Assembly: GCA_029782145.1 (NCBI GenBank)
Contig: JAKOVH010000026.1
Location: 124,001 to 188,000 of the forward strand
Length of the DNA: 64,000 nucleotides
Source of the DNA: Actinomycetes bacterium
GTDB taxonomy: Bacteria > Actinomycetota > Acidimicrobiia > Acidimicrobiales > Acidimicrobilacustridaceae
Reading direction: 5' to 3'
Below are positions 4,521-12,246 of the stretch, piece after piece. The notes under the pieces were generated by a model that searched no databases, was not told the DNA's origin, and was given only the letters and a program-made list of their open reading frames with translations. How positions within the stretch are numbered: position 1 is the stretch's first letter; the number at the start of each line of letters is the position of its first letter. The position numbers and the translations under genes are program-made.

Positions 4521-5300
4521 TCAGACCTGCTCGAGGGTGCCGCTGGCCATCGGCGCGGTCGTGGGCTCGGCCGAGCCGCCGGCGGGCTCCATGGTGATGG
4601 CGAGCTGGTGCACCTGCCCGTCGACGCCCACCATCGCCATGTGCGGGTCGGGGCCGAGCAGCCCGAGCGACACCATGGTGGTGCCGTCGACCGACCAGAG
4701 CTGGTAGGTGTGGGCGTCGTCGAGGGCGGGGAGCGCGGCCGACATCACGAAGCCGTGGCCCTGGGGATCGACCACGACCTCCACGGCCATGGTGGCGCCC
4801 GGGTCGGTGAGCGCCGCCGTGCGTGCGCCGGGCATGGTGGCGGCTTCTCTCGCCATCTGCTCCATGCTCGCCGCCCGGTCGGTGCCGCCCCCGTCGCCCG
4901 AGCGCACGGCGGCGACGACGCCCACGACGGCCAGGACCACCACCGCGGCCGCCGACAGGAGCCACGCCCCGCGGTGGCGACGGGCGGCGGCGAGCGGCGT
5001 GACGGTCGCCGGGGCCGCGTGAGCCGGCTCCGTCCGTTCGCCGAGGCGCGCCGCGATCGAGCTCCACAGCTGCGGTGGGGCGCTCGCACCCTCGGCGGCG
5101 GCCGCGGCGAGCCGGTCGGCCGCGGCCGAGAGCCGGTCGGCCTCGAGCCGGGCCCGCAGGTCGGTGGCCAGCAGCTGCTCGACGCGCCGGCGCTCGTCGC
5201 CGTCGACCGCGTCGAGCACGTAGGCGCCGAGCAGCGACTCGGTGTCGGCGCCCGGCCCGGTCCGGCGGTCGGCGTGGCCGTGGGGCTCGCGCTCGGTCAT
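4521..5300 (-). CDS. rskA: Anti-sigma-K factor RskA
   Basis: A 259-residue single-span membrane protein. The N-terminal part (ESLLGAYVLDAVDGDERRRVE) is the sigma-binding domain of RskA-type anti-sigma factors. One transmembrane helix follows (about residues 111-131, rich in A and V), then a C-terminal extracytoplasmic RskA domain with YQLWSVDG and LAITMEPAGGS motifs. Its ATG overlaps the stop codon of the sigma factor gene, the normal arrangement for sigK-rskA. It would hold the sigma factor at the membrane until proteolysis releases it. Confidence 0.9.
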   Translation of the reverse strand: MTEREPHGHADRRTGPGADTESLLGAYVLDAVDGDERRRVEQLLATDLRARLEADRLSAAADRLAAAAAEGASAPPQLWSSIAARLGERTEPAHAAPATVTPLAAARRHRGAWLLSAAAVVVLAVVGVVAAVRSGDGGGTDRAASMEQMAREAATMPGARTAALTDPGATMAVEVVVDPQGHGFVMSAALPALDDAHTYQLWSVDGTTMVSLGLLGPDPHMAMVGVDGQVHQLAITMEPAGGSAEPTTAPMASGTLEQV

Positions 5301-5872
5301 CGGTCGGTCCCCGGTCCGGTGGCCTCGAGCCGGTCGGCCAGCTTGGCCAGCCCGAGGCGGATGCGGCTCTTGACGGTGCCCTCCGGCAGGTCGAGCCGGA
5401 CGGCCACGTCCCGGTAGCTGAGCCCGCCGAAGTAGGCGAGCACGATGGCTTCCCGCTCGCCTTCGGAGAGGGTGGCGAGTGCCTCGGCCAGGGCCTGCGA
5501 CCCGAGGGCGGCCAGGGCCTGGCGCTCGACGTCCGGGGGGTCCGGCACCGCTTCGCGCTCGGCGCGCGCCTCGCGCCGGCGGCGGGCCTCCTCCGACCGC
5601 ACCCGCTCGACGGCCCGGCTGTGGGCCTGGCGCAGCAGGAACGACCGCAGCGCGCCCCGGCCGGCGTCGAAGCGCTGCGGCTGGTGCCAGAGGCGCAGGA
5701 ACACCTCCTGGGTCACCTCCTCGGCCATCGCCTCGTCGCCCAGGACCCGGCGCACCAGCCCGAACACCCCGTCACCGTGGCGACGGTAGACCTCGGCCAG
5801 GGCGTCCTGGTCGGCCCGGCCGACGGCGTCGACCAGCGCCCCGTCGTCGAGCTGGTGGATCGGAGGCTCCAT
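5297..5872 (-). CDS. sigK: ECF sigma factor, SigK type
   Basis: A 191-residue RNA polymerase sigma factor. Region 2 is at about residues 20-85 (LAEVYRRHGDGVFGLVRRVLGD, then EEVTQEVFLRLW); region 4 ends in AYFGGLSYRDVAVRLDLPEG and TVKSRIRLGLAKL. Unlike redox-sensing relatives it has no cysteines. It is encoded directly before and overlaps rskA. In mycobacteria SigK controls exported antigens and oxidoreductases; here the upstream gene on the same strand is a membrane molybdoenzyme, a plausible target, but I see no promoter that proves it. Confidence 0.88.
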   Translation of the reverse strand: MEPPIHQLDDGALVDAVGRADQDALAEVYRRHGDGVFGLVRRVLGDEAMAEEVTQEVFLRLWHQPQRFDAGRGALRSFLLRQAHSRAVERVRSEEARRRREARAEREAVPDPPDVERQALAALGSQALAEALATLSEGEREAIVLAYFGGLSYRDVAVRLDLPEGTVKSRIRLGLAKLADRLEATGPGTDR

Positions 5873-5976
5873 GTCCCTCGCGCCCGGTCGGTGGTCGCGG
5901 CGCGCCCGTGCCGGCGCAACGAGCCCCACCCTAGGGCTGGGTCCCGGCCGGTCGACGAGCGCGGCGGTCGCCACCG

Positions 5977-7584
5977 TCAGCGCACCTCCACCACCACCGA
6001 GTGCCACCCGGTCGCTCCGTCGGGTGCGGGATCGGCCCGCTGCTCGGTCTGCACGACGCCGCGGCCGTCGAGCGCTCGGGCGGTGATGGTGTGGCGGCCG
6101 CTGGTGGCGTCCCAGGGCAGCACCCACTGGCGCCACGTGTCGTCGCCGGGCGCGTCGCCGAGGCGAGCGGGGAGCCAGGGCCCGTCGTCGACCCGCACCT
6201 CGACCGCGCTGATGCCTCGGTGGACGGCCCACGCCACGCCACCGATCGGCACCGTGCCGGCGTCGAGGCGCCCCGAGCCCTTGGGCGTGTCGATGCGGGC
6301 CATCGTCTTGATCGGCGCGATCGGCGCCCATCCCCGCGTCACCCAGTAGGCGTCGTAGGCGTCGAAGGTGGTCAGCTCCAGGCGGGTGAGCCACTTGGTG
6401 GCCGACGTGTAGCCGTAGAGGCCGGGTACGACGAGCCGGGCCGGGAAGCCGTGCTGGACAGGCAGCGGCTCGCCGTTCATGCCGACGGCCACCATGGCGT
6501 CGCGGCCGTCCATGGCGATGGCCGTCGGGGTGCCCGCCGTCCACCCGTCGACCGAGCGGCTGACCAGCTGGTCGGCGCCCGGCTGCACCCCCGCCTCCTC
6601 GAGCAGGCCGCGCAACGGCACGCCGAGCCACCGGGCGTTGCCGGCGTAGCGCCCGCCGACCTCGTTGGAGACGCACACCAGGGTGATGTCGCGCTCGATC
6701 AGCTCTCGGTCGAGCAGCTCCTCGAAGGAGAGCCGCAGCGGTCGTTCGACCATGCCGCCGATGTCGAGGCTCCACTGCTCCGGGGAGATGCGGGGCACCA
6801 CGAGCGCGGTGTCGACCCGGTAGAACGAGCCGTTCGGGGTGGTGAAGGGCGTGACCCCCTCCGTGGCGAGGTCCACGCCGGCGGCGAGCGCCTCGCCGGG
6901 CGAGCTCGGAGACGGCAGCACCAGCGCCTCGCGCGCGCCGGCCACGTCGAAGCGCCGCTGCAGGGCCCGCCCCACGCCGCCCGCCACCGCCGCGCCACCG
7001 GCCACCAGCCCGGCGCTGAGCAGGAACCGCCGGCGGTCGAACCCCGTGGGCGGCGGCGCCGGCCGCGAGCGCTCGGCGACCGGCACGGGGGGTGCGCTCG
7101 TGCGCCGCGGCCCGACGAGCAGCGCCAGCACGGCGAGAGCGCCGGCGGTGCCCACGAGCGACGGCAGGGCGGCACCGGCGGGCGCGTCCGGGCGGCTCAC
7201 CGCGCTCACCACACCGACGGCGCCGAGCACCAGCGTGCCCACCACGCCGGCTCGCCACCGCCGGGTCGAGGCCACGCCCACCACGGCCGACAGCACGACC
7301 AGCACGACGGTGGTCCCGGCGACCAGGGCCGGCTTGTCGTCCTGGCCGAACGTGGCGATGGCGAAGTCCTTGAGCCACGCCGGGGCGTGCTCCACCACCA
7401 CCTCACCGACCGACACGACCGGCGACGAGGTGCCCTCCACCACGCCGGTCACCAAGGTCCCGAGCGCCAGGGCGGCGCCGACCGCGGTCAGGCCGGCCAG
7501 CGCGCCCCACCACCACGCCGGCGCCGGCGGCCGCGGGCCCGGCCCCGACGGTGCAGGGCCGTGAGGGCTGTCGACGCTCGTCAC
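5977..7584 (-). CDS. Membrane-anchored sulfite-oxidase-type molybdopterin oxidoreductase
   Basis: A 535-residue protein. The first about 175 residues contain roughly four transmembrane helices, then FDRRRFLLSAGLVAGGAAVAGG looks like a second hydrophobic anchor with an RRRF twin-arginine-like motif. The C-terminal half is the sulfite oxidase fold: LDIGGMVERP, then CVSNEVGG, whose cysteine is the expected molybdenum ligand, then LVVPGLYGYTSATKW. The last about 100 residues form the Mo-co dimerisation domain. The start is a GTG with GGAAG upstream. The active domain is likely outside the membrane; the substrate (sulfite or an organic S- or N-oxide) cannot be read from sequence. Confidence 0.85.
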   Translation of the reverse strand: MTSVDSPHGPAPSGPGPRPPAPAWWWGALAGLTAVGAALALGTLVTGVVEGTSSPVVSVGEVVVEHAPAWLKDFAIATFGQDDKPALVAGTTVVLVVLSAVVGVASTRRWRAGVVGTLVLGAVGVVSAVSRPDAPAGAALPSLVGTAGALAVLALLVGPRRTSAPPVPVAERSRPAPPPTGFDRRRFLLSAGLVAGGAAVAGGVGRALQRRFDVAGAREALVLPSPSSPGEALAAGVDLATEGVTPFTTPNGSFYRVDTALVVPRISPEQWSLDIGGMVERPLRLSFEELLDRELIERDITLVCVSNEVGGRYAGNARWLGVPLRGLLEEAGVQPGADQLVSRSVDGWTAGTPTAIAMDGRDAMVAVGMNGEPLPVQHGFPARLVVPGLYGYTSATKWLTRLELTTFDAYDAYWVTRGWAPIAPIKTMARIDTPKGSGRLDAGTVPIGGVAWAVHRGISAVEVRVDDGPWLPARLGDAPGDDTWRQWVLPWDATSGRHTITARALDGRGVVQTEQRADPAPDGATGWHSVVVEVR

Positions 7585-7728
7585 GAGGGACTTCCGTTGC
7601 CGCGACCGGCCGTGGATGAGCCATGATGGTCCCGATCGCCGGCTGGCGGAGCCGGCACCACACGAGATCACAGCAAGGGAGCCGTCCCCGGGCCTCGCGG
7701 CGCCGGTCGGCGGGCACGGCGGGGGGCG

Positions 7729-9006
7729 ATGCAGCACGACGAGCTCGGGAGGCCATCGCAGGGCGATCCGGCGGCGTGGCTGCTGGCCCGCATGGCCGCC
7801 GACGCGACGGTGGTGTCCCTCGAGGGCACCTGTGAGGCGCTGCTCGGCCGCTCGGCGGCCGGGCTGGTGGGCGGCACCCTCGTAGGCATCATCCACCCCG
7901 ACGACGTCGACCTGTGCCGCGCCCTCGGCGCGGCCGCCCGCGCCGAGCCCGGTGCCGGCCGTTCGACCGACCACCGGGTGGTGCGCCCCGACGGCAGCGC
8001 AGTGTGGGTCGAGGCCACGCTCACCTACGACGCCGCCACCGGCGAGATGACGGCGCTGCTCGTCGACGTCTCGCGCCGCCTGGCCCAGGAGGCGGCGCTG
8101 GAGGCCAGCCGCCAGGAGACCCTCGAGCTCGCCGAGGAGTTCCGGCTGCTCGCCGACGAGATCCCCTCGGGCGCCTTCCGGGCCGACGCCGACGGGTCGA
8201 TCCTGTTCGCCAACGCCCGCTTCCACACCCTCGCCGGCACCCGCGACGTGACCCGGCTGCACGAGCTGGCCGCCCCGGCCGACAGCGCCCTGATCGACGA
8301 GGCCCTCGGCGCGGCGCTCGGCGCCGACCCGGACCCCGGCCGCGGCCCCGGCCCCGACCCCGACCCCGGTGCGCAGCCCACGGGCGGGCCAGCGGCCCAC
8401 GACGGGATCCACGTCGAGTTCCGGGCCCGCGACGGCGGGCGCACCCTGCTGCTGCGCCTCGGCGCGGTGCGCAACCCCGGCAAGCCCGGCGGCACGGTGG
8501 TGGGTGTGCTCATCGACGCCACCCCCACCGTCGAGCTGCGCACACGCGCCCGCACCGACTCGCTCACCGGCCTGCTGAACCGGACCGCGCTCAACGAGCA
8601 CCTCGACGCCGTGCTGCGCGCCGGCGGCGATGTCTGCGTCATGTTCGTGGACTTCGACGACTTCAAGCACGTCAACGACTGCTTCGGCCACCACGCCGGC
8701 GACGAGGTGCTGCGGGTGATCGGCCGCCGGCTGCGCAACGCGGTGCGCGGCTCGGAGGAGGTCGGCCGCTACGGCGGCGACGAGTTCGTCATCGTGTGCA
8801 CCACCGTCGATCCGGCCACGGTGGCCAACCTCCGCGCCCGGGTCGAGGCGGTGCTGTCCGAGCCGGTGCACTTCGACGACTCGTTGTGGCCGCCGTCGGC
8901 GAGCATCGGCACCGCGACCTCGGTGCCCGGCGACACCGCCACCTCGATCCTGCGGCGGGCCGACGCCGAGATGTACCGGGCCAAACGGGCCGACGGCCGC
9001 CGATAG
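7729..9006 (+). CDS. PAS-domain diguanylate cyclase (GGDEF)
   Basis: A 425-residue cytoplasmic protein. Two PAS-like domains (about residues 15-120 and 145-270) precede a GGDEF domain with DSLTGLLNRTAL, FVDFDDFKHVNDCFGHHAGD and GRYGGDEF, so it should make cyclic di-GMP. The inhibitory I-site RxxD five residues before GGDEF reads RGSE, so product inhibition may be weak. A Pro-Asp-Pro-Gly low-complexity stretch (near residues 200-222) interrupts the second PAS domain. The start has a G-rich ribosome site. The window also holds an EAL protein, far away at the other end. Confidence 0.88.
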   Translation: MQHDELGRPSQGDPAAWLLARMAADATVVSLEGTCEALLGRSAAGLVGGTLVGIIHPDDVDLCRALGAAARAEPGAGRSTDHRVVRPDGSAVWVEATLTYDAATGEMTALLVDVSRRLAQEAALEASRQETLELAEEFRLLADEIPSGAFRADADGSILFANARFHTLAGTRDVTRLHELAAPADSALIDEALGAALGADPDPGRGPGPDPDPGAQPTGGPAAHDGIHVEFRARDGGRTLLLRLGAVRNPGKPGGTVVGVLIDATPTVELRTRARTDSLTGLLNRTALNEHLDAVLRAGGDVCVMFVDFDDFKHVNDCFGHHAGDEVLRVIGRRLRNAVRGSEEVGRYGGDEFVIVCTTVDPATVANLRARVEAVLSEPVHFDDSLWPPSASIGTATSVPGDTATSILRRADAEMYRAKRADGRR

Positions 9007-9026: not shown

Positions 9027-9911
9027 ATGGCACGCGTGGCGCTGCGGCACACGGCCAACGCCGAGGGGGCGTGGTTCGTCGACACCCGCTGCATCGACTG
9101 CGGCACCTGCCGGGAGGTCGCGCCGGGCACCTTCGGCGTGGCCGGCGGCCAGTCGGTCGTCGTGCGCCAGCCGGCCGCCGGCGACGACGGCGCCGAGCGG
9201 GACGCGTGGCTGGCGGCCCAGGCGTGCCCCACCTCGTCGATCGGCACGGTCGACCACCGGCCCCGCCCGGGGCGGCTCTACCCCCGGGAGGTCGAGGCCG
9301 GCAGCGGCGTGTTCGACGTGGGCTACTGCGCCGAGAGCTCGTTCGGGGCGTCGGCCTGGTTCGTCGTGCGGCCCGACGGGAACCTGCTCATCGACTCGCC
9401 CCGCTTCACCGACGCCCTCGCCGGCCCGTTCGCCGAGATGGGCGGCATCGCCCACGTGCTGCTCACCCACCGCGACGACGTGGCCGACGCCGGCCGCTGG
9501 GCCGAGCGCTTCGGCGCCCGGGTGTGGATCCACACCGATGACCGCCGCGCCGCCCCCTTCGCCACCGACCTGCTCGAGGGCGGTGCCGGCGAGCCGACCA
9601 CCGTCGCCCCGGGCGTCGTCGCCCATCCCGCGCCCGGCCACACGAAGGGCAGCGTGGTGTTCGTGGTCGACGACCGGTTCTGCTTCTCGGGCGACTCGCT
9701 GGCGTGGAGCCACGAGCGCGGCGACCTCACCGCCTTCCGGGGTGCGTGCTGGTACTCGTGGCCCGAGCAGACCCGCTCACTGCGGGCCCTGGCCGCCACG
9801 AGCTCGTTCGAGTGGCTCCTGCCCGGCCACGGCGCCCGGGCCCACCTGCCGGCCGCGGAGCTGCACGATCGCCTCGACCGCCTGGTGGCACGGATGGCGG
9901 CCGCCGCGTAG
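9027..9911 (+). CDS. Ferredoxin / metallo-beta-lactamase-fold fusion protein
   Basis: A 294-residue protein. An N-terminal ferredoxin-like domain has CIDCGTC and a fourth cysteine in ACPTSS (residues about 22-70), enough for one 4Fe-4S cluster. The rest is a metallo-beta-lactamase fold: LLTHRDDVADAGRW replaces the usual HxHxDH, then HPAPGHTKGS, FSGDSLAW and LLPGHGA. From memory the THRDDVADA form is conserved in a ferredoxin-fused branch also found in cyanobacteria and plants. The reaction is unknown. It starts 20 bases after the GGDEF gene. Confidence 0.82.
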   Translation: MARVALRHTANAEGAWFVDTRCIDCGTCREVAPGTFGVAGGQSVVVRQPAAGDDGAERDAWLAAQACPTSSIGTVDHRPRPGRLYPREVEAGSGVFDVGYCAESSFGASAWFVVRPDGNLLIDSPRFTDALAGPFAEMGGIAHVLLTHRDDVADAGRWAERFGARVWIHTDDRRAAPFATDLLEGGAGEPTTVAPGVVAHPAPGHTKGSVVFVVDDRFCFSGDSLAWSHERGDLTAFRGACWYSWPEQTRSLRALAATSSFEWLLPGHGARAHLPAAELHDRLDRLVARMAAAA

Positions 9912-9973: not shown

Positions 9974-11341
9974 ATGACCGAGATCCGCTCCACCACCCCC
10001 ACCGCCGCTGCGTTCCCCGGTCGGGAACACGGGACGGCCGGCGCCGACACCGCCGTCGACGTCGCCGTGCTCGGCTCGGGCCTGGCCGGCCTGGCGGCGG
10101 CCGCCACTGCGGCCCGGGCCGGAGCCCGCGTCACCGTCGTCGAGGGACCGGCCCGGTCCGGTCGGGCCCGCACCGACGAACGCGACGGCTTCCTGCTCAA
10201 CCGAGGTCCGCACGCGCTCTACGACACCGGCCCCGGCCGCGCCGTGCTCGCCCGGCTGGGCGTGGACCCTCAGGGCGTGCGCCCACCGTCGACGGGCGTG
10301 CTGGCCTGCGGCGACCAGGTGCACCGGCTGCCCCGAGGCATCGGGGGGATGCTCACCAGCTCGGTGGTGACGGCGCGGGACAAGGTCCGGATCGGGCACC
10401 TGCTCGCCCGGGTGGCCCGCCTCGATCCCGCCTCGGTGGCGGACCTCACCGTCGAGGGGTGGCTCGAGCGCTCCCTGCCCCCGAGCGCCCGGCCGCTCGT
10501 GCGGACCCTCGTGCGCGTCAGCAGCTACTGCGCCGACACCCGCTCGGTGTCCGCCGACGTCGCCGTCACCCAACTGCGGGCCTCGTCCCGCGGCGTGCGC
10601 TACCTCCACGGTGGGTGGGCTCAGCTGACCGACGGCCTGCGGGCCGCCGCCGGCCCGACCGTCGAGTGGCACCCGGGGACGGCGACGGCTGTCCGCCCGA
10701 CCGGCGGCGGCTGGGACGTCACCACCGACCGGGGCACCGTGCGGGCCGGCGCCGTGGTGGTCGCCGCCGGCTCCCCGGCCGCCGCGGCCGCCCTCCTGCC
10801 CGGGCCCGCCCCGGCCTCCTGGTCTCGCCTCGGGCCTCCGGTGCTGGCCTCCTGCCTCGACCTGGGCCTGCGGCGGCCCCCGGCCGTGCGCAGCTGGTTC
10901 GGGGTCGACCGGCCCCACTACCTGGTGGCCCACGCACCCGGCGCCGAGCTGGCGCCTCCCGGCTCCGCCGTGGTGCACGTCATGCGGAACCTGCACCACG
11001 ACGACGCCGACCGGCCGGCGCAGCTGCGGGCCGAGCTCGAGGCGCTGGCGCGGCGGGCGGGCATCGCCGACGATGACGTGGTGGTCGCCCGCTACCTCCA
11101 CCACATGCACGTGGTGTCCGCCTCCGTCACCCCGGCCGGCGGGGGGCTCACCGGGCGTCCCGGCATCGACGACACCGGGCACACGGGCCTGCTGGTGGCC
11201 GGCGACTGGGTGGGACCGGACGGCTGGCTCGCCGACGCCTCGCTGGCGAGCGGTGAGGCCGCCGGCGCCGCCGCCTCCCGGCACGCCGCCGTTGCTGCGC
11301 AGGCCGGGCCCGGCCGTCGGCCGGCAGGGGCCCGTCGGTGA
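9974..11341 (+). CDS. FAD-dependent amine oxidase/phytoene-desaturase-like oxidoreductase
   Basis: A 455-residue flavoprotein. VAVLGSGLAGLAAAATAA (about residues 30-47) is the dinucleotide-binding loop, followed by VTVVEGPARSGRARTDERDGFLLNRGPH, the usual second motif of the amine-oxidase/desaturase superfamily. The C-terminus TGLLVAGDWVGPDGWLADASLASGEAA closes the FAD site. The next gene starts within its stop codon, so both are one transcript. ECF41 sigma factors are normally encoded with an oxidoreductase or decarboxylase, and this one may fill that role. The substrate is unknown. Confidence 0.83.
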   Translation: MTEIRSTTPTAAAFPGREHGTAGADTAVDVAVLGSGLAGLAAAATAARAGARVTVVEGPARSGRARTDERDGFLLNRGPHALYDTGPGRAVLARLGVDPQGVRPPSTGVLACGDQVHRLPRGIGGMLTSSVVTARDKVRIGHLLARVARLDPASVADLTVEGWLERSLPPSARPLVRTLVRVSSYCADTRSVSADVAVTQLRASSRGVRYLHGGWAQLTDGLRAAAGPTVEWHPGTATAVRPTGGGWDVTTDRGTVRAGAVVVAAGSPAAAAALLPGPAPASWSRLGPPVLASCLDLGLRRPPAVRSWFGVDRPHYLVAHAPGAELAPPGSAVVHVMRNLHHDDADRPAQLRAELEALARRAGIADDDVVVARYLHHMHVVSASVTPAGGGLTGRPGIDDTGHTGLLVAGDWVGPDGWLADASLASGEAAGAAASRHAAVAAQAGPGRRPAGARR

Positions 11342-12246
11342 GCGCCCCCAGCCCGACCGCGGCCGAGGATCGGGCCCGGCGGTTCGCCGCCGAGCGCGAC
11401 CGCCTCGTGGGCCTCGCCTACCGGATGCTCGGGAGCCGCACCGACGCCGAGGACGTGGTCCAGGAGGCGTGGATCCGCTACGCGGCGTCGCCCGGTGAGC
11501 CCGACAACCCGGCGGCGTGGCTCACCACCGTCACCAGCCGCATCGCCCTCGACGTGCTGCGCTCGGCACCCGTGCGCCGGGAGCGCTACGTCGGACCGTG
11601 GTTGCCCGAGCCGGTCCGGACCCGGTTCGGCGACGGCCCCGAGGAGCTGGTCGACCGGGCCGCGACGCTCACCCTCGGGTTCCTGGTCGTGCTCGACACG
11701 CTCCCGCCGGAGGACCGGGTGGTGTTCCTCCTGGCCGACGTGTTCGCCGTGCCATTTGCCGAGATCGCCCCGGTCGTGGGCCGCTCGCCCGAGGCGTGCC
11801 GGCAGGCGGCCAGCCGGGCACGACGGCGGATCCGAGCGGCGGGCGCACCGCAGCGCACCGGTCCCGCCGCCGCCGACTGGGACCTCGCCGCCCGCCTGGC
11901 CGCCGCGGTCGGCGCCGGGGACCTCGACGGCACCCTGGCCCTGCTCGCTCCCGAGGTGACGCTGGTGAGCGACGGCGGACCGAACCGCCACGCCGCCCGA
12001 CGGCCCGTGGTGGGCGCCGAGCGGGTCGCCCGGTTCCTGGTGAACGTGGCGTCCCGGCGGGCCCCGGGCACCGCGGCGGAGGTCGCCGAGATCAACAGCG
12101 CCCCCGGGCTCATCACCCGATCGCCCGGCGAGGCGCCGGTGGTGTGGGTGATCGAGCCCACCGGCGACGGGCGCATCGCCGACATCCGCATGGTGCTGGC
12201 CCCCGAGAAGCTGACCCTGCTCGACACCGGCCCCCTCGACTGGTGA
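11338..12246 (+). CDS. ECF41-type sigma factor with SnoaL-like C-terminus (SigJ-like)
   Basis: A 302-residue sigma factor. Region 2 includes LVGLAYRMLGSRTDAEDVVQEAWIRY and region 4 FAEIAPVVGRSPEACRQAASRARRRI. About 110 further residues form a SnoaL/NTF2-like domain (DLDGTLALLAPEVTLVSDGG), typical of the ECF41/SigJ group, where it regulates the factor in place of an anti-sigma protein. GTG start coupled to the stop of the oxidoreductase gene. It probably controls its own operon. Confidence 0.88.
   Translation: MSAPSPTAAEDRARRFAAERDRLVGLAYRMLGSRTDAEDVVQEAWIRYAASPGEPDNPAAWLTTVTSRIALDVLRSAPVRRERYVGPWLPEPVRTRFGDGPEELVDRAATLTLGFLVVLDTLPPEDRVVFLLADVFAVPFAEIAPVVGRSPEACRQAASRARRRIRAAGAPQRTGPAAADWDLAARLAAAVGAGDLDGTLALLAPEVTLVSDGGPNRHAARRPVVGAERVARFLVNVASRRAPGTAAEVAEINSAPGLITRSPGEAPVVWVIEPTGDGRIADIRMVLAPEKLTLLDTGPLDW

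Follow-up and report, generated by a model that had tools for sequence, protein, structure and literature searches.

What becomes of the metal site of a metallo-β-lactamase (MBL) fold when the protein carries a ferredoxin domain at its N-terminus and the HxHxDH motif no longer reads as such, and what could an iron-sulfur cluster contribute there? This question is raised by a gene in the 64,000-nucleotide stretch of contig JAKOVH010000026.1 that was analyzed here (the window; the features of the gene are collected in Table 1). The gene is real. Its frame runs from an ATG start to a TAG stop, and 241 of the 294 residues are identical in the copy of a same-genus genome, with a dN of 0.117, a dS of 0.490 and a dN/dS of about 0.24; a chance or frame artefact is dismissed by the Pfam matches, the encoded relatives and this ratio. 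A single copy of the fusion was found in its own genome (search at E 0.01). For comparison, we compiled 122 rows, from which six duplicates and three rows without the N-terminus (L007, L069 and L121, the first two being the same sequence) were removed, leaving 113. The preliminary description of a ferredoxin-MBL fusion with a non-canonical motif is confirmed.

Table 1. Positions in the window of the fusion gene, its domains and its candidate cluster and metal ligands.
Feature	Position	Strand	Evidence
CDS, ferredoxin domain + MBL-fold domain, 294 aa	9027..9911	+	ORF/translation, dN/dS
Fer4_13 single-cluster ferredoxin domain, residues 18-74	9078..9248	+	Pfam E 5.3e-15; model; Foldseek
C22-x2-C25-x2-C28 cluster motif	9090..9110	+	C22, C25 in 113/113 rows, C28 in 52/113
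C67 (CP), fourth cluster cysteine	9225..9227	+	113/113 rows
MBL-fold domain, residues 106-271 (Lactamase_B_5)	9342..9839	+	Pfam; VIA-align best 2p97_A
THRDDVADA, residues 147-155, HxHxDH region minus two residues; candidate ligands H148, D150, D151, D154	9465..9491	+	HMMER alignments, 113 rows
H205 (PGHTKGS), matches canonical H196	9639..9641	+	113/113; aligned to pGHT of 1xm8, 6rz0, 2qed
D223 (SGDS), matches canonical D221	9693..9695	+	113/113; aligned to GD of 1xm8, 6rz0, 2qed
H268 (PGHG), matches canonical H263	9828..9830	+	113/113; aligned to PGHG of 7l0b

The MBL domain belongs to Lactamase_B_5 (PF14597; 31.4 bits, cut-off 28.4) and also matches Lactamase_B over residues 108-234 (23.8 bits, cut-off 22.7). 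Of the canonical MBL active site, the fold and the downstream residues H205, D223 and H268 are present and HxHxDH is not; the altered motif that had been noted before is confirmed, the region reading T147-H-R-D-D-V-A-D-A155. In all four printed alignments (family profile, HMMER), a two-residue gap separates H148 from D150 relative to the canonical enzymes, placed after R149 against 1xm8 and 7l0b and before R149 against 6rz0 and 2qed. HMMER pairs H148 with the first histidine and D150-D151 with the D-H of HxHxDH, and D154 falls on the second residue but one after the motif, which is usually glycine in canonical enzymes. As read from these alignments, the change at the motif is a two-residue deletion plus substitutions. 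Twelve other MBL loci of the same genome were read as a control, of which ten have HxHxDH and one HDDGDH, the pattern matching nothing in the last (L140), so the window motif is odd for its own genome too.

How constant is the altered site among relatives? H148, D150, H205, D223 and H268 are invariant in the 113 rows, the window protein included, as are the neighbors of H205, G204 and T206. Part of the H148 and D150 invariance is selection, since the contig-scan rows, the best 80 of 301, were retrieved with two patterns that include LLTH[RQ]D[DH][VA]A. H148 and D150 are also kept in all 38 loci that whole-protein or profile searches recovered (L002-L009, L090-L119), a set that includes four proteins also found by pattern (L002, L003, L091, L093) and rests on a profile built on pattern-found rows. 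Residue 151 is D in 88 rows and H in 25, and residue 154 is D in 84, H in 26 and E in three, which combine into the pairs DD (84), HH (25), DE (3) and DH (1, row L054 only). Residue 155 (A 49, H 32, G 28, Y 2, F 1, Q 1) is too variable for a fixed ligand. The 25 rows with histidine at both 151 and 154 (L008, L009 and 23 of L060-L089; Streptomyces, Nocardia, Kutzneria and others) carry the motif HRDHAAH or HRDHVAH, lack the third cluster cysteine throughout and form one actinomycete clade on a long stem (0.87). Because this is a single clade, the D-to-H exchange at 151 and 154 amounts in effect to one event and gives no statistical proof of ligation.

From these comparisons the metal site looks rebuilt, not lost, and with a motif that is altered but kept, the window protein is very probably a working metalloenzyme. 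H148, D150, H205, D223 and H268, together with residues 151 and 154, may coordinate one or two metals, with residue 154 possibly standing in for the deleted histidine. Such a candidate ligand set would be carboxylate-rich in the window protein (three His, four Asp), and iron or manganese would suit it at least as well as zinc.

Structure prediction had been proposed for this protein. AlphaFold2, run on 81 rows, gave a confident model of both halves (entire chain: pLDDT 97.4, pTM 0.94); the whole-chain model speaks for a fixed relation between the predicted domains. The best solved match by VIA-align is 2p97_A (Z 24.1, rmsd 2.5, 195 residues aligned), the other 49 structures listed having Z values of 18.6-19.6. 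The family profile against solved proteins likewise places 2p97 first, followed by hydroxyacylglutathione hydrolases and then by thioesterase-type MBLs; at the head of the lists of solved proteins stand 2p97, class B lactamases and glyoxalase II-type hydrolases, and the iron-dependent persulfide dioxygenase fusion BpPRF comes further down (E 2.8e-4).

The best structural and profile match, 2p97 (AVA_3068 of Anabaena variabilis), corresponds to the MBL half only and belongs to the same Pfam family as the window MBL domain. It shares the short spacing before the D-D/H pair and differs at the ligands: it has N at the position of H148, D at that of H268 and a shifted K/T near that of H205, with no clear equivalent of H205 itself. 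Judged by these residues, 2p97 is probably without a metal site, and its likeness to the window protein lends some weight to a pseudoenzyme whose MBL half would bind no metal either. We regard this as very unlikely for the window protein, in view of the five residues fixed in every row and of the dN/dS given above.

Membership of the ferredoxin domain in Fer4_13 (PF13370) is clear (56.3 bits, cut-off 24.5), and residues 1-88 modeled alone reach a pLDDT of 94.2. Their best Foldseek match is the P. furiosus ferredoxin D14C 2z8q (TMt 0.85, rmsd 1.4, at an E of only 1.3e-3), and the fold is that of the single-cluster ferredoxins with 4Fe-4S or 3Fe-4S clusters (2z8q, 1siz, 1iqz, 4id8), which are free proteins, whereas the ferredoxin domain of the window protein is fused. 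Its cluster cysteines are complete, in agreement with the preliminary description (C22, C25, C28 and C67-P), which is not a habit of the genome since all seven other Fer4_13 proteins (L124-L130) lack the second cysteine, having H (3), S (2), N or D instead. Among the Fer4_13 proteins of its genome, the window protein alone has all four cysteines. Replacement of the second cysteine is the pattern of 3Fe-4S P450-type ferredoxins, and the fusion family in contrast varies at the third.

Residue 28 is C in 52 rows, A in 46, S in 13, T in one and V in one, so that 61 of the 113 rows have no cysteine there. It switches at least four times on a quickly built tree, where 32 of the 110 inner branches have weak support, and the window protein falls into a group of 14 rows, supported at 85, that all keep C28. 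No clear cysteine compensates for the loss among the 113 rows at the two residues compared, 98 and 241: a cysteine stands at residue 98 in 37 of the 52 rows that have C28 and in 35 of the 61 that lack it, and at residue 241 in 38 and 20 of these rows, respectively, the latter distribution tracking clades by eye. Going by these residue counts, the absent third cysteine weakens a standard 4Fe-4S wire as the model for the family. An exchangeable iron would be compatible with three constant cysteines plus a fourth that varies, as in a regulated metalloenzyme or sensor whose labile cluster switches with oxygen, nitric oxide or iron status and toggles the MBL domain; such a role appears distinctly unlikely to us, as the window protein has all four cysteines and no regulatory neighbor recurs in the flanks examined.

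Which known enzymes combine an MBL fold with a redox domain, and does the fusion belong with any of them? Flavodiiron proteins have an MBL fold with a carboxylate in the metal site and carry an HxExDH diiron motif, and a kinship of this type had been suggested for the window protein. An MBL fold with carboxylates at the (here candidate) metal site is common to both. No flavodoxin Pfam match was found over the 294 residues at E 0.001 and the motif is HRDDVAD instead of HxExDH, which rules out membership. CMP-Neu5Ac hydroxylase is an MBL-fold iron enzyme with its own Rieske domain; the window protein gave no Rieske match at E 0.001, its N-terminal domain being Fer4_13. Neither flavodiiron nor Rieske-MBL structures occur among the 50 VIA-align matches listed. 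SolJ (NF041804) is a weak NCBIfam relative, against which the window protein scores 24.1 bits (cut-off 350), and according to the available part of the report on solanimycin, deletion of solJ left bioactivity unchanged (PMC9765074).

The nearest canonical enzymes are hydrolases. Glyoxalase II and GloB (1xm8, 6rz0, 2qed) align with the window protein in the MBL core, pGHT and GD, but they keep the full motif, and the window protein is two residues shorter; THxHxDH was not found in it and HAGH_C was unmatched at E 0.001. The fusion could be a metal-dependent, glyoxalase II-like hydrolase acting on a thioester, a lactone or a similar substrate, with a ferredoxin domain that is structural or binds substrate and has no need of electrons. 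This is possible, though we hold it tentatively. The ranking of hydroxyacylglutathione hydrolases and thioesterase-type MBLs directly behind 2p97 is in its favor, and so are the dispensable C28 and the HH clade, where five His and two Asp would restore the canonical MBL composition if H154 replaces the histidine. Less easily accommodated are the strict conservation of C22, C25 and C67, seemingly beyond the needs of a scaffold, and the state of the motif in most members including the window protein, with one histidine deleted and another changed to Asp.

A redox metalloenzyme whose cluster would feed electrons to the MBL site, along the putative path suggested before, is a serious candidate, although it falls short of being probable, and we place it slightly ahead of the hydrolytic reading because the three cluster cysteines are invariant. 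The cluster, held by these three and here by the fourth, would hand single electrons to the MBL metal site, and the reaction could be the oxidation or reduction of a small molecule, as in the MBL-fold iron enzymes above that carry their own redox domain. Several observations count against this reading: C28 is lost in just over half of the rows, the best-matched canonical enzymes are hydrolases and no neighbor family recurs, although single redox neighbors are possible beyond the 25 families listed. The full combination, an MBL redox family with a shortened HxHxDH, a residue 154 (D, E or H) that replaces the histidine and a cluster with an open iron in about half of the members, perhaps facing the metal site or the substrate, seems rather unlikely.

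The genomic surroundings provide little guidance. A PAS and GGDEF protein with an intact GGDEF motif (7729-9006, plus strand) ends 20 bases before the fusion gene. Downstream on the same strand lie an FAD oxidoreductase (9974-11341; Amino_oxidase, with an HpnE-like match below the cut-off and a start at 9974 set by eye) and, overlapping it by four bases, a SigJ-type sigma factor (11338-12246) with a SnoaL-like match under the cut-off. On the minus strand are a molybdopterin oxidoreductase (5980-7599; Oxidored_molyb, 150.4 bits) and then an ECF-type sigma factor (5300-5998). When the 113 loci were searched by tblastn at E 1e-8, the PAS-GGDEF and SigJ-type genes had no match and the FAD oxidoreductase had one, at the same-genus locus L010 (64% identity), where a 2OG-Fe(II) oxygenase adjoins the fusion gene. 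In the searched flanks, which extended to at most 3 kb and to 1.5 kb for loci from the genome search, no neighbor was met again outside the genus, and an operon logic for the fusion gene is dismissed on this ground. TetR_N, with four members, is the most frequent family among the 94 genes that flank 48 loci (25 commonest of 115 families listed); these loci were chosen from the 80 where a crude gene-calling script had recovered the family gene, the flanking genes were called by that script, and one neighbor of more than 900 residues was omitted from the set.

The family is widespread but patchy. The contig scan yielded 301 encoded relatives, of which the best 80 were used, and no cyanobacterial locus is among these 80. 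The fusion was found in three of 41 near genomes (its own, that of the same genus and a third from the same taxonomic family) and in seven of 396 genomes of the phylum sample, its own included. Around more distant relatives, it occurs in 35 of 247 genomes in the phylum of an Acidobacteriota-titled relative, center included, and in the center genome only in the phyla of an Azospirillum relative (one of 398) and of a Dehalococcoidia relative (one of 201). Fusion records are titled Actinomycetota, Acidobacteriota, Pseudomonadota, Chloroflexota, Planctomycetota and Myxococcota, with many metagenome-assembled genomes among them, and plasmid relatives are annotated as 'MBL fold metallo-hydrolase' or, once, as 'ferredoxin'. 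Azospirillum L121 was considered as a relative lacking the ferredoxin domain; its available sequence stops where the match does, which makes a contig end more probable than loss of the domain. Weak MBL matches in Bacillales plasmids sit among sulfur-transfer genes.

Could plants hold relatives as well? AT4G33540 may be a member of the fusion family. The accessible portion of a sorghum survey describes SbGLYII-6, a protein of 332 residues with Fer4_13 towards the N-terminus and the MBL domain behind, the same order as in the window protein, which is the ground on which we connect the two (PMC7011430). In that portion it is listed without THHHXDH and without C/GHT and is classed as inactive with no activity expected, a label that agrees with a pseudoenzyme but derives from the missing motifs and not from an assay; it is also reported to be up-regulated by ABA and osmotic treatment (PMC7011430), which would suit a sensor. 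The absence of C/GHT in the sorghum table is at odds with the G204-H205-T206 found in every row of the bacterial family, so either that table or the kinship is doubtful. In the part available of an oat survey of the GLX2 family, Fer4_13 is named among the extra domains of some members (PMC10308377). A functional study of a ferredoxin-MBL fusion was not found in the literature searched.

In conclusion, the window protein belongs to a bacterial family that is scattered and little studied. With its invariant ligand set and optional third cysteine, this family lends itself to simple tests. If the site was rebuilt and not lost, the family would represent a widespread metalloenzyme without an assigned reaction, and judging such proteins on HxHxDH alone would mislead, in several bacterial phyla and perhaps in a crop plant, where a protein of like domain order is filed, in the survey portion cited above, as an inactive glyoxalase II.
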